Below are positions 55,492 through 64,000 of a stretch of 64,000 bases of DNA, in pieces. Source of the stretch: Methanosarcina sp. 2.H.T.1A.6 (lineage in GTDB: Archaea > Halobacteriota > Methanosarcinia > Methanosarcinales > Methanosarcinaceae). The notes below the pieces were generated by a model that had not been told where the DNA came from, did no database searches, and saw nothing but the letters and a program-made list of their open reading frames with translations. The stretch spans positions 62,001-126,000 of the forward strand of contig NZ_JJOY01000048.1 in the NCBI RefSeq assembly GCF_000979455.1, read 5' to 3'. A program made the position numbers and the translations under genes. The first letter of the stretch is position 1, and each line of letters begins with the position of its first letter.

Positions 55492-57123
55492 TTATGATAG
55501 GTCCGCCTGGATACAGACCGGAGCGATATGGTTTACTGCCTGGAGAGCGATGCTTTCAAGGAAGTTGCGGATACTCCAGGGAATCTTATCCAGAGTATGG
55601 GAGGCAAAATTCAAGCTGCCTACGATTTCGTTACTATACTTAAGAGGAATTATCGCTACTGCTGTAATTCCTTCTTCCCTTGCCGCTTCAGCCATATTTT
55701 CGGAGTAAAAATCCAGCGAGTAAATGGGCTTTTCGATCCAGATCTGTTTTGCCTCATTTGATTCTGCCTTATATCTTGAAACCTTTTCTTTAAATTCGGG
55801 TGAAATTCCCCTGGATGCAACAAGATTTATCTGGTCCATGAGTTCGTCCTTAATATATACACCCCCGGCGTCCAGTCCGTTTATCTGCAGGCAGGCATCA
55901 AGTACCAGGTCAAGAATGGTATGGAGATTCCAGGTAGTATTAAGGTTCATTCCCAGTTCCCGCTGGATTTCGAGCATTTTCTGGGCTTCTTTTTGTTCGG
56001 TAATATCTACAACAAGGCCCTGAAGATGTGTTGCTTTGCCTTCTTTATCCCTCTGGATAAAGGTTTTCTCATCCACCCAGAGCATTTTTCCGTCTCCTGT
56101 AAAAATCCTGTATTCAATATCGAAAGATTCCTGTTTCTCGGCGATGTTGCGTTTAAGGGTTTCAATAACCGTGCCAATGTCATCCCTATGAATTATACTC
56201 CCGTAAGCCACTTTCCCTGATGTGAAATCTTCTACAGTGTAACCTAATTGGGTCACGTTTTCTGAAACGTATTCTGCAGGCAGGTCTTCTTTGTTTTCCC
56301 ATAAAAATGCCACTGCCTGGCTGTTGTTGATTATGGTTCTCAACAGCTTCTGCATTTCAAAAGATTTCCCGAGGGCTTCTTCATTCTCTTTCCGTTCGGT
56401 TATATCGAGGACAAGCCCTTGCAAGTGGGTTATCTCTCCGTCTTCATTCCGCTGGATAAATGTCCTTTCGTTGACCCAGCGCAGGTCTCCGGCTTTTGTG
56501 AATATTCTGTACTCCGCATTGAAGTCAACTTCACCTTTTCGGATACGCTGTTCTAACATCTCTTCAACTTTTTTCTGGTCATCGGGGTGGATGATGTCCC
56601 CATAAAGGATATTGCCGGAAATAAAGTCCTCCACCGTATATCCAAACTGGACGACGTTTTCCGACACAAATTCGGACGGCCATTTTGCCTCCTTTCTCCA
56701 CAGGAAAACAACTGCAGGGCTATTGTTTACTACGGTCCTGATTATTTCCTGCATCTTAAGGGCAGATAATAGGTCCACAATTCCTATTACTGCAATCACC
56801 TTCCCGTTCTCCGAGAAGATCGGGCAAACAGCCACGTTTCTGCCCAGGTAAGTGCCCTCCTTCGGAACTCCCCTTATGGTCTTTCCGGTCCTGAGCACCT
56901 CTTCGAGTACCGGCCCTGTATAGTCCCTGTCAATTATTTTTCCTTTTTCGAGGCGAAGCCCCTTCTTCTTGAGGCTGCGGATGGTGGTCGGAAGCCCTAC
57001 AAGGGAATGTACTGCCACTGCTATTGCTTCAAGTTCCTCTGGTCCCGCATCTTCATATATTAAAGATGTAATTCTTTCACCCCCAGAAAGATTCTGATTT
57101 TTTATAACTAAAGGTAGAAACAT
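55492..57123 (-). CDS. DUF2111-PAS-PAS-GAF sensor protein without output domain
   Basis: 543 residues. Order: an N-terminal domain of about 125 residues that looks like methanogen DUF2111, PAS with PAC (about 130-250), a second PAS with PAC (about 260-380), and a GAF domain (about 395-540). No histidine kinase, ATPase, GGDEF or DNA-binding domain follows. The two PAS domains are close repeats (WVNERTFIQRN and WVDEKTFIQRD). It probably signals by protein contact or by pairing with a separate kinase. Ligands could be redox or heme; no obvious heme ligand is visible. Confidence 0.8.
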   Translation of the reverse strand: MFLPLVIKNQNLSGGERITSLIYEDAGPEELEAIAVAVHSLVGLPTTIRSLKKKGLRLEKGKIIDRDYTGPVLEEVLRTGKTIRGVPKEGTYLGRNVAVCPIFSENGKVIAVIGIVDLLSALKMQEIIRTVVNNSPAVVFLWRKEAKWPSEFVSENVVQFGYTVEDFISGNILYGDIIHPDDQKKVEEMLEQRIRKGEVDFNAEYRIFTKAGDLRWVNERTFIQRNEDGEITHLQGLVLDITERKENEEALGKSFEMQKLLRTIINNSQAVAFLWENKEDLPAEYVSENVTQLGYTVEDFTSGKVAYGSIIHRDDIGTVIETLKRNIAEKQESFDIEYRIFTGDGKMLWVDEKTFIQRDKEGKATHLQGLVVDITEQKEAQKMLEIQRELGMNLNTTWNLHTILDLVLDACLQINGLDAGGVYIKDELMDQINLVASRGISPEFKEKVSRYKAESNEAKQIWIEKPIYSLDFYSENMAEAAREEGITAVAIIPLKYSNEIVGSLNFASHTLDKIPWSIRNFLESIALQAVNHIAPVCIQADLS

Positions 57124-58289: not shown

Positions 58290-58362
58290 TAGTCCTGAGC
58301 GGATTTGAACCGCTGTCCCGGGCTCCAAAGGCCCGAAGGATTGACCACTACCCTACAGGACT
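58290..58362 (-). tRNA. tRNA-Gln (TTG)
   Basis: 73-nt cloverleaf on the minus strand: acceptor AGTCCTG / CAGGACT with discriminator A, anticodon stem CGGGC / GCCCG around loop CTTTGGA (anticodon TTG), T-arm GCGGT / ACCGC type with GTTCAAATC. CCA is not encoded. Confidence 0.92.
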
Positions 58363-58470
58363 ACGCATGTAAGCTTTTACTTATAGCTTAATTCATGTAC
58401 TTAATTTTTGTGCCTTATTGGGACTTTTTTGCGGGATTTTCAGGTCAAATATTCATTTATATAAAAATTC

Positions 58471-58567
58471 GTATGCCGGCTTTGAAACTTTTTACATGAT
58501 AATATTTTTTGTTTGAAATGAATTTTTTGTATAATTAATTTAAAGTAATTTACATTATTACTATATA
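58471..58567 (+). promoter_or_regulatory. Conserved upstream module of sRNA copy 1
   Basis: The block TATGCCGGCTTTGAAACTTTT ... TATAATTAATTTAAAGTAATTTAC...TATATAATG recurs before all three RNA copies (59022 and 59549 on). It contains an AATTAATTTAAA box and a TATATA box; which is the TATA element is unclear. The length of the shared block, about 95 bases, exceeds a plain promoter. Confidence 0.55.
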
Positions 58568-58745
58568 ATGGAGCTGGAAGAGATAGGGATGACCGAATAG
58601 AAGTATTAGCGGATTGTTAAAGAATCGCCCGGAGTTACTCGTTCCTGCTCTGGCGGTATGTTGATGGGAACATATTTTCAGAGCTGTTGTGTTGGGGGAC
58701 ACCGTAAGGGATGAGAGTTACACCGGGCTTCTTCTTCTTACAGTA
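58568..58745 (+). ncRNA. Probable small RNA, G5-loop family, copy 1
   Basis: Non-coding by any frame. It begins near GGAGCTGG and ends near CTTCTTCTT followed by T-rich sequence. Hairpins: TATGTT-GATGGG-AACATA (58658-58675) and GTGT-TGGGGG-ACAC (58689-58702). It aligns with copies 2 and 3 in the start, the second hairpin and the end. The most diverged of the three. Ends are estimated, not mapped. Confidence 0.55.
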
Positions 58746-58778
58746 TTTATTTTTTTGAGTGCTTTCAAATTTGTTTAT

Positions 58779-58907
58779 GAGCTCATCCCAAAACCAATTT
58801 TATTTTCAAATCAGTAAAGTTTCAGAACTATTTTCATGATCAGAAACTCTATTGATTATTCTGAATACGGGATTTAGAGAAGCAATTTTGAGTTTTGGGA
58901 TCGGCTC
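58779..58907. mobile_element. MITE-like element with terminal inverted repeats
   Basis: Terminal repeats GAGCTCATCCCAAAAC (58779-58794) and its complement GTTTTGGGATCGGCTC (58892-58907), 14 of 16 matching, enclose about 97 bases without an ORF. It lies between sRNA copies 1 and 2. No transposase with these ends is in the window. Confidence 0.5.
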
Positions 58908-59021
58908 TATATTAATTTTTGATCGATTTCGATCTGTTTTTGCTGTATTCTCAATATTCTTTTGCTCTTCTATGAGCACTCTTGCTGATATTTCTGGTTA
59001 AAAATTAGAATCGGCGCAAAA

Positions 59022-59118
59022 TTTATGCTGGTTTTGAAACTTTTAGCGTAACAATATAATTTGTTACAGAACAATTTTTGATATAATTAATTTAAAATAA
59101 TTTACGCTATTAGTATAT
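59022..59118 (+). promoter_or_regulatory. Conserved upstream module of sRNA copy 2
   Basis: TATGCTGGTTTTGAAACTTTT ... ATATAATTAATTTAAAATAATTTAC...TATATACTGG, about 75 percent identical by eye to the copy-1 block with the same spacing of elements. Confidence 0.55.
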
Positions 59119-59305
59119 ACTGGAGTTGGGAAGTGAGATTGGTTAATCTACCGACATAATCTACCACCTGAAGAATTGCCTGGGGGCCGCTGATCCTTTC
59201 TTCGAATTAATGTGCTTGGGGGAGCATATGATATTCGGAGAGGCTATGTTGGGGGACACGGCGAACGGATGTAGTACCTCCGGGCTTCTCTTATACTTTT
59301 TTTCC
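59119..59305 (+). ncRNA. Probable small RNA, G5-loop family, copy 2
   Basis: Begins near GGAGTTGGGAAGTGAG. Hairpins: TGCT-TGGGGG-AGCA (59213-59226) and TGT-TGGGGG-ACA (59247-59258); a further TGGGGG occurs at 59181-59186. Ends GGGCTTCTC before a T-rich tract. About 187 nt. Confidence 0.6.
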
Positions 59306-59548
59306 TTACTCCATCTTTTCTCTTCTGTCTGTCTCTATTTTCTTCTCTATTTCCTTCTCTATTTCTTTTCCGATTTCTATCCATTTTTTCTTGAATATGG
59401 CTTTTGAGACTTACATTCATAAAATATATTTTTCACAGGTCAAAAGGGTAAAAGACCCAGTACCGAAATGCCTTCCAGGTTGATCGTTTAAGTAACAGGC
59501 ACCTGTAGACGACAGTTCTAATTTTGGCAGTTGAGCTTTTACACTTAA

Positions 59549-59651
59549 ATCCTTATATTGCTTTGAATTTTTTAACGTTGAATTAATTTTTGTTTAAGAA
59601 CAAAATTTTGGGTAATTAATTTAAAATAGTCAATGATATAATGTTATATTC
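59549..59651 (+). promoter_or_regulatory. Conserved upstream module of sRNA copy 3
   Basis: TATATTGCTTTGAATTTTTT ... GGGTAATTAATTTAAAATAG ... GTTATATTCG, the most diverged of the three blocks but with the same element order. Confidence 0.5.
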
Positions 59652-59812
59652 GTGGAGTTGGGAAGTGAGTAGGGTATATACAATAAGAAATGCTTGGGGG
59701 CCATTGATCCTGCTCTGGATCAATATGCTTGGGGGAGCATATCTTCAGGGCTGCTGTGTTGGGGGACACAGTAGAAAAGGATAATCGTGCCTCTGAGCTT
59801 CTTCTCACAACG
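59652..59812 (+). ncRNA. Probable small RNA, G5-loop family, copy 3
   Basis: Begins GGAGTTGGGAAGTGAG (identical to copy 2). Hairpins: TTGATCC-TGCTCT-GGATCAA (59704-59723), ATATGCT-TGGGGG-AGCATAT (59723-59742), CTGTGT-TGGGGG-ACACAG (59754-59771), with an extra TGCTTGGGGG at 59691-59700. Ends GAGCTTCTTCTC. The stems are perfect and differ between copies while the loop TGGGGG is fixed, which is evidence for structured RNA. Confidence 0.62.
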
Positions 59813-59818
59813 TTTTCT

Positions 59819-60058
59819 TCACTGCGCTTTTTTCTCTCCAGGTCTTTTCCTTGTTACTTTAAAAGTTGTCAAAAAAGGGCGTTTGATCGGAAGGTTGATG
59901 TCCTCTTTTTCGATATGAAGTTCGACCGCTTCTTTCAGGTTCGAAACTGCTTCTTCAATCGTTTTTCCCTGGCTTGATATATCCAGTTCCAGGCATGAGG
60001 ATACGTACCGCTCTTTCTCCTTTTGCACCACTGCCGAAAATGTAAACATTTCTGTCAT
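59819..60058 (-). CDS. HicB-like antitoxin, orphan
   Basis: 79-residue HicB-family protein (the first 50 residues match the HicB RNase-H-like fold: FSAVVQKEKERYVSSCLELDI, GKTIEEAVSNLKEAVELH). GAGGT precedes ATG 60058. No HicA toxin (60-80 residues, dsRNA-binding fold) is found on either side, so it is an orphan. Its 3' end touches the end of sRNA copy 3 on the opposite strand, so the two transcripts converge or overlap. Confidence 0.75.
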   Translation of the reverse strand: MTEMFTFSAVVQKEKERYVSSCLELDISSQGKTIEEAVSNLKEAVELHIEKEDINLPIKRPFLTTFKVTRKRPGEKKAQ

Positions 60059-62937: not shown

Positions 62938-64000
62938 ATGGAAGCGGAAATGACCTCAAGGGAGCGTTTTATTAACGCACTAGAAGGAAACTATGTTGAC
63001 CGTGTCCCATACGGCTACCTGTGGTTCGGAGCAGGGCATGCGGTACTGGAGCGGCTGGGCGCAAGCCTCAAGGACGCTTACGGTTCTGCAGAGGGAATTG
63101 CAAGGGCACAGATCCTTGCGCGGGAGATGTATCACCAGGATAATGTAATGTCCCCCTGGGGCTGCCTTCTGGTGGAAGCCGAGGCACTCGGGACAAAGGT
63201 AAACATAAAGGAAAATGCCTATCCTACAGTTGCAAAATATGTACTCAAATCCGCGGCTGAGCATGAACTGATAAACCCCGATGACATCGAGAAGTCCGGG
63301 AGAGTGAAGACCATTGCCGGATCGGTTGAGATTCTCAAGAAGGAAATCGGGGATGAAGCATTTATCACAGGGGCAACTATGTCTCCTCTGATGCTCGCAT
63401 CTCAGGTCATGGGAGGGAGCAGGCTCTGCATTGACATGCTGAAGGACAGGGACAGTTTCCACGCCCTGCTGGAAAAACTCACGGAAAGCTGCATCCTTTT
63501 TGCCGATGCCCTGCTTGAAGCCGGAGCTGACGGTATTTTTGTCGAAAACGGGGAGAACACGGGAGACCTTTTCAGCCCGCAAATGGCTGAAGAATTCATG
63601 CTGCCATATACGAAGAAACTCTATGATCATATCAAAGCCGGAGGAGGCTATGTAATCTCCCATAACTGTGCAGCCCATGCTTTCTATGACCTGGAAATGA
63701 AACTTGAACCCCATGCCCTTAACTTTGCCTTCGGGGATGTCAGGCTGCTCGGAAAAAAGTATGGGGTTGAATGTAAAAAGCTCCATAACCACAAAAACAT
63801 CGGGTGCGGTCCAAGGCACTGCTTCAAGGAATTTAAGGTATTTTCGGACGCAGGCATCTGCCTTATGGGAAACATTATCCCGGATGCTCCTCTCACCGGT
63901 TCCCGCGCCGAGATCGAGCATGAGGTAAAAAGCTGTCTCTCCGCGGCACCGAAAAAAGGTTTCATTCTGTCGACAGGCTGCGAAATCCCTCTTAACACCC
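62938..64000 (+). CDS. MtaA/MtbA-like corrinoid:CoM methyltransferase, 3' end cut
   Basis: Uroporphyrinogen-decarboxylase-fold protein, 354 codons visible to the window edge. ATG 62938 is preceded by AGGAG 8 bases away and TATA-like TTTATAAAACT at about 62886. The zinc motif HNC appears in SHNCAAH and the C-terminal cysteine in STGCEIPLN, so the active site is complete. The N-terminal half differs from MtaA and MtbA (for example an ATMSPLML segment and HNHKNIGCGPRHC), so it is a paralog with an unknown methyl donor. No corrinoid protein is next to it inside the window. Confidence 0.78.
   Translation, partial: MEAEMTSRERFINALEGNYVDRVPYGYLWFGAGHAVLERLGASLKDAYGSAEGIARAQILAREMYHQDNVMSPWGCLLVEAEALGTKVNIKENAYPTVAKYVLKSAAEHELINPDDIEKSGRVKTIAGSVEILKKEIGDEAFITGATMSPLMLASQVMGGSRLCIDMLKDRDSFHALLEKLTESCILFADALLEAGADGIFVENGENTGDLFSPQMAEEFMLPYTKKLYDHIKAGGGYVISHNCAAHAFYDLEMKLEPHALNFAFGDVRLLGKKYGVECKKLHNHKNIGCGPRHCFKEFKVFSDAGICLMGNIIPDAPLTGSRAEIEHEVKSCLSAAPKKGFILSTGCEIPLNT

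Follow-up and report, generated by a model that had tools for sequence, protein, structure and literature searches.

Multi-copy structured RNAs with twin GGGG hairpin tips in Methanosarcina and one sister genus

Three tandem RNA genes in a 64,000-nt stretch of the genome of Methanosarcina sp. 2.H.T.1A.6 (the whole stretch analysed, hereafter the window) belong to what appears to be a previously unlisted RNA family without an Rfam match, and we regard it as virtually certain that this is a real, selected family of structured RNAs. Its members fold into a long rod ending in a junction from which two hairpins emerge, and both hairpins carry the same short G-rich tip. The reading that we prefer, at a probability of roughly 0.4, is a multi-copy small RNA that presents its twin GGGG tips to a putative RNA-binding protein as a decoy or scaffold, with its expression tied to two-component signalling.

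The array and the distribution of the family

The array is part of contig C44, in a genome of 4.07 Mb whose relatives are Methanosarcina. The covariance model places the three genes in tandem on the plus strand of the window, at 58569-58746 (copy 1, paralog group A; 106.9 bits, E 2.7e-19), 59121-59303 (copy 2, group B; 151.6 bits, E 1.2e-28) and 59653-59816 (copy 3, group C; 143.0 bits, E 7.8e-27), with a spacing of about 530-550 bases and a conserved block of about 100 bases ahead of each RNA. A fourth copy in the same genome was found by the model search at C54:84223-84383. Three tandem copies with a shared start and with stems that vary yet stay complementary had been proposed in a preliminary description of this DNA; both points were confirmed, the start common to all three copies being TGGAG[T/C]TGG. 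Dinucleotide shuffles of each copy also give less stable folds than the copy itself (z = -2.79, -2.75, and -3.06 for copies 1, 2, and 3, respectively).

Of 60 related genomes searched by BLAST with copy 2, 29 contained relatives, all in one genus. From 44 copies, aligned with MAFFT, a consensus fold and a calibrated covariance model were derived, and applying the model to the fetched loci and to the window yielded 120 copies of about 160-185 nt. The model detected the family in all 31 genomes of Methanosarcina, with 1-22 copies each (one detected copy in G005 and in G019), and in each of the four genomes sampled from a sister genus (g20), which belongs to the same taxonomic family. It was not found in the other 37 of the 39 genera sampled (238 genomes of the class), in a large scan whose stricter filters could lose weak members. 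The covariance model search of relatives that the preliminary description had called for therefore places homologs in two of the 39 genera sampled in the class. Regarding known families, a scan of the window at the Rfam 15 gathering thresholds returned two tRNAs and nothing else, and a relaxed Rfam 15 scan of 58400-59850, with E up to 5, gave no match. No description of the family was found in the literature searched; the original M. mazei sRNA catalogue lies outside that search and may list single members unrecognised.

The three copies are old paralogs that have been inherited vertically, with the order of the array kept across species. In a tree of 60 copies, copy 1 falls in an orthologous group of 8 rows (support 100/99), copy 2 groups with those of genomes G028, G004, and G015 (98/93), and copy 3 is nearest to the group-C orthologs of G003, G015, and G028, group C being less well supported. 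The window copies thus occupy three different groups, each made up of the same array position in other species, which indicates that the array is old and that its members have been kept separately. Solitary copies likewise form position-specific groups. Tandem arrays of 3-6 copies, with a spacing of about 500 nt, occur in the family. The array of G027 has a further copy after the listed ones (L153 4806-4840, with two extra tips; in the 44-copy alignment as L035:1620-1786), so arrays can exceed their listed size. Duplicated 5' blocks, in which TGGAGTTGGGAAGT... stands twice ahead of the rod, are seen in L106 3986-4161, L101 4544-4720, and L017 1492-1669, and suggest that the 5' end of the RNA can be repeated.

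Between copies 1 and 2 lies a MITE-like element of about 129 bp (58779-58907) with imperfect terminal inverted repeats; its own genome yields 25 BLAST matches (71-100% identity, a few of them fragments), and three M. barkeri plasmids carry relatives of it. The plasmid matches are to this spacer and not to the RNA, and spread of the RNA by plasmids was accordingly rejected. A viral origin was also discarded: 115 stretches share a 14-mer by chance, and the model gave nothing significant on 80 of them. The many copies per genome and the true MITE-like repeats that adjoin the RNA would fit a selfish MITE-like repeat without host function, which we nevertheless consider the least credible of all the explanations, given the compensatory evolution, the conserved promoter, the orthologous positions across species, the lack of viral relatives in our searches, and the mere four copies in this genome.

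Other neighbours of the array include a tRNA gene directly upstream on the opposite strand (58290-58362, minus), a neighbour that may be conserved in other species, as small open frames at the corresponding place suggest. A 79-aa open frame (59819-60058, minus) abuts copy 3; it has a weak likeness to DUF7387, below the cut-off, and, judged by eye, a likeness to the HicB-type antitoxin fold. In L100, L101, L110, and L151, the arrays are likewise followed by short frames on the minus strand. Further downstream, a URO-D family protein (corrinoid methyltransferase-like; 62938-63999, plus) is encoded, and the same holds in many species, among them members of the sister genus.

Fold and hairpin tips

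In the consensus fold, the rod P1, in which AAGAA...CC[U/C]GGRGG...GAUCC pairs with GGAU...CCUC[U/C]GGG..UUCUU, opens into the junction that bears the hairpins P2 and P3. Changes on both sides occur at 38 of the 42 proposed pairs (rod extended at both ends; n = 120), and compensatory cells number 369 versus 107.5 ± 10.5 in column shuffles, in an alignment of 120 copies that was fitted to the core of the structure and therefore leans towards it. Paired cells make up 91.2%, versus at most 50.9% when partners are slid by 1-3 columns, in which case compensatory cells drop to at most 123. The first fold, obtained on the unfitted MAFFT alignment of 44 copies, had 19 of 32 pairs compensatory. The preliminary description had taken compensatory variation of the stems as a sign of functional RNA structure around a constant loop, and would have abandoned this view had further homologs lacked covariation; across the 120 homologs, covariation lies far above the controls.

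While the stems vary, GGG is kept in the P2 tip of 117 of 120 copies, in the P3 tip of 112, and in both tips of 110. The commonest tips are C-U-U-GGGG-G-A-G in P2 and A-U-U-GGGG-G-A-U in P3, that is, U[GGGG]G closed by a U-A pair in each case. The outermost pair of the tip is UG in 99 copies, UA in 8, and CG in 5 for P2, and UG in 82, CG in 13, and UA in 13 for P3; because this U-G wobble is replaced by U-A or C-G in part of the copies, the bases left exposed are for the most part GGGG. Therefore, the conserved and repeated tips on variable stems stand as first described, whereas the fixed UGGGGG hexaloop gives way to what is probably a GGGG tip with a covarying U-G closing pair.

All motifs in the array are on the plus strand. 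In copy 1, the P2 tip is TGATGGG (58662-58668), a variant characteristic of paralog group A and also present in the group-A homologs of the 44-copy alignment, and the P3 tip is TGGGGG (58693-58698). Both tips are TGGGGG in copy 2 (P2, 59217-59222; P3, 59250-59255) and in copy 3 (P2, 59730-59735; P3, 59760-59765). A third TGGGGG in each of these two copies (59181-59186 in copy 2 and 59695-59700 in copy 3) belongs to the 5' strand of rod P1, where it is base-paired and forms no loop. The earlier count of up to four TGGGGG per RNA, all in loops, thus has to be revised to one in copy 1 (the P3 tip) and three in copies 2 and 3, with two tips per RNA as the rule.

The strictness of the G, with GGG kept even in variant tips, could also reflect G-tetrads, in which the GGG tracts of both tips, together with a 5' tract or a second RNA, would assemble into a quadruplex able to bind a ligand or to dimerise the RNA. 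Of the 120 copies, 65 have four or more GGG tracts when the 5' domain and the tips are counted together; however, the 5' tracts range from 0 to 4 without a conserved number and hairpin GGGG tips are short for tetrads, and we consider this explanation improbable.

Promoters and sensor-kinase neighbourhood

The family members are, as far as their sequences tell, independent small RNA genes with their own promoter and usually a U-tract at the 3' end. Alignment of the upstream regions of the 120 copies revealed a long element, ending in AATTAATTTAAAATAATTTA, that is common to nearly all copies, and a TATA-like TTTAAWRTA at -30 in 71 copies (at -30 to -33 in 95). In the window, the conserved block of about 100 nt ahead of copy 1 (58472-58568, plus) belongs to a 106-nt direct repeat family (D1) and has a TATA-like TTTAAAGTA about 30 nt ahead of the RNA start; the block ahead of copy 2 (59024-59120, plus) is part of the same repeat family, aligns with the other upstreams, and carries the core promoter pattern, while that of copy 3 (59553-59652, plus), recognised by the direct repeat and the aligned upstreams, is a diverged form common to the group-C orthologs. 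In this genome, the core promoter pattern matches solely upstream of family copies. A run of at least five T near the 3' end is found in 88 of 120 copies versus 22 of 120 random stretches, and the predicted independent transcript would start at TGGAG and end at CUUCUUCUU. Given a separate BRE/TATA-type promoter for every copy, with the long upstream element in common, all copies should respond to one signal.

These features bear on the possibility that the RNA is a cis element, i.e., a leader, attenuator, or terminator module for the next downstream gene. In 91 of 118 cases, the first ORF downstream shares the strand of the RNA, and some positions are fixed across species, such as DUF711 - RNA - TPP enzyme. 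A promoter of its own for each copy, the usual U-tract, and tandem arrays of 3-6 copies about 500 nt apart are difficult to reconcile with such a role, as are downstream genes that lie up to about 3 kb away, are unrelated in function, and are on the opposite strand in 27 cases. We therefore hold a cis function to be rather improbable, though slightly less so than G-tetrads.

A HisKA_2 kinase gene lies within 3 kb of 14 of the 30 loci in four genomes, where 1.1 would be expected, and none of 5000 rotations gave as high a count. The surroundings differ among sites. Where a kinase gene directly flanks a copy, the two nearly always share a strand; exceptions are L121 and a DUF2111-PAS-PAS-GAF sensory protein encoded beside the main array of the window (55492-57123, minus), on the strand opposite to the RNAs; a similar protein is encoded beside the array in G004, G008, and G028. 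Either joint duplication of kinase and RNA genes or regulation may explain this proximity.

Candidate partners and mode of action

We favour a protein decoy or scaffold on account of two identical short tips, many co-regulated copies, and tips that are fixed while the stems are free. A protein partner is preferred over an mRNA because the tip exposes no more than 4-6 nt, and its complement is unenriched genome-wide (for the exact 8-mer) and, in modest samples, not clearly enriched before genes. It should be noted that strict G tips would be equally expected from pairing with C-rich RNA or from G-tetrads, which speaks against the decoy reading.

Pairing with C-rich mRNA ranks next. Under this explanation, the RNAs would be trans-acting antisense regulators, the mirror image of sRNAs with C-rich loops such as sX13 and LhrC. 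Pairing to C would call for a strict G, the complete complement of 8 nt would pair well (-14.4 kcal/mol), and other Methanosarcina sRNAs work by base-pairing (PMC3510493). With the RNA copies masked, CCCCAA is also slightly over-represented in 5' regions (6 versus 2.4 ± 1.6); a first, larger excess of C-rich targets had partly been the antisense of the RNA copies themselves. However, the whole-tip complement is unenriched, so that the simplest prediction fails, although pairing through shorter seeds may still occur: the exact 8-mer TCCCCCAA occurs 110 times in the whole genome versus 109 for the reversed control, and 15 of the 30 sites inspected are antisense to genes, 10 are in coding sense, and 2 are in a 5' region, just upstream of a gene in sense. 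In addition, tips often have A at some positions. The suggested pairing with C/U-rich messages is weakened accordingly, and we judge antisense action possible but doubtful. A single TCCCCCAA site among the 30 is close to a start, at L296 1501 (plus), 30 bases ahead of a 491-aa frame whose beginning, judged by eye, resembles archaeal glycyl-tRNA synthetase. Isolated TGGGGG hairpins, considered as marks of mRNA targets, are few, and the best of them (upstream of purH, L140) is not conserved in orthologs.

The preliminary description had also raised pairing of the tips with the 16S anti-Shine-Dalgarno CCUCC, which would make the RNA ribosome-directed. GGGGG can indeed pair with CCUCC, with one G-U, at -8.4 kcal/mol, but GGAGG would pair better (-9.3 kcal/mol) and yet is rare in the tips, which stay G without drifting to GGAGG. 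Moreover, it is GGAGG, not GGGGG, that peaks at the Shine-Dalgarno position in this lineage; GGGGG itself was dismissed as a Shine-Dalgarno sequence on the grounds of its wrong position. These observations weaken the proposal and leave a ribosome-directed role very unlikely. M. mazei sRNA41 has been reported to mask ribosome binding sites (PMC5867862), an action that would not be expected of GGGG tips.

Returning to the protein decoy, its closest parallels are CsrB/CsrC and RsmX/Y/Z, which likewise occur in several copies with repeated identical G-containing tips on variable stems, and the Rsm RNAs of Pseudomonas are under two-component control (PMC4132741). Unlike these RNAs, the family has two tips, GGGG instead of the GGA motif, and a rod with a junction instead of a string of hairpins. 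CsrA (PF02599) is absent from 8 genomes, with control matches in E. coli, B. subtilis, and T. maritima, and the family is therefore not a Csr RNA. The likeness to CsrB in the preliminary description accordingly holds for the architecture (identical tips, covarying stems) but does not extend to CsrA.

Some ANTAR systems are controlled by histidine kinases. A search for ANTAR proteins gave no match in 8 genomes, nor in any control genome. The target RNAs of ANTAR proteins resemble the family in having two hairpins, with loops of six nt, but these loops have A1 and G4 (PMC8164766), whereas the position is U1 here and the tip is U[GGGG]G. Listeria LhrC1-5, four copies of which lie at one locus under the control of a two-component system, are also multi-copy sRNAs with a repeated recognition motif (PMC4132741); in contrast to the GGGG described here, with its unenriched complement, the LhrC motif is UCCC, CU-rich, and base-pairs with target mRNA. 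Xanthomonas sX13 (PMC3771888) and 6C RNA share stable stems and apical homopolymer-like loops with the family, but their C-rich loops act on 4G motifs in mRNA, so the polarity is reversed. Among M. mazei RNAs, sRNA162 and sRNA154 are likewise genus-restricted; however, sRNA162 folds into three stem loops, includes a single-stranded linker of 39 nt, and has sRNA171 as its one homolog (PMC3510493), the promoter of sRNA154 contains an NrpR operator (PMC3177094), and neither is described as a multi-copy RNA with twin GGGG tips.

Taken as a mechanism, the protein decoy would comprise a lineage-specific, stand-alone structured RNA family of Methanosarcina and one sister genus, whose two identical GGGG tips would be paired docking sites for the RNA-binding protein. 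The number of co-regulated copies would set the amount of decoy or scaffold RNA available for titration, and expression would be tied to sensory two-component signalling, an action like that of Csr/Rsm decoy RNAs without the family being one of them. More broadly, and in our view less plausibly than either the decoy itself or antisense pairing, the twin-GGGG RNAs and the putative protein that they capture might constitute a new archaeal RNA-protein system, a convergent counterpart of Csr/Rsm and an output of the expanded PAS/HisKA_2 sensor kinases of the genus.

Few archaeal regulatory RNAs are understood. To our knowledge, the outputs of archaeal PAS/HisKA_2 sensor kinases are largely undescribed, and we know of no archaeal equivalent of a CsrB-type decoy. 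The family is present throughout a genetically tractable genus, frequently with many copies per genome, and its fold is well supported. It also has an obvious recognition element, a dedicated promoter common to all copies, and a statistically strong association with sensor kinases. Its parts are testable in M. acetivorans or M. mazei, and a binder of the GGGG tip would be the first of its kind in archaea, whether it is a protein, an mRNA, or a tetrad partner.
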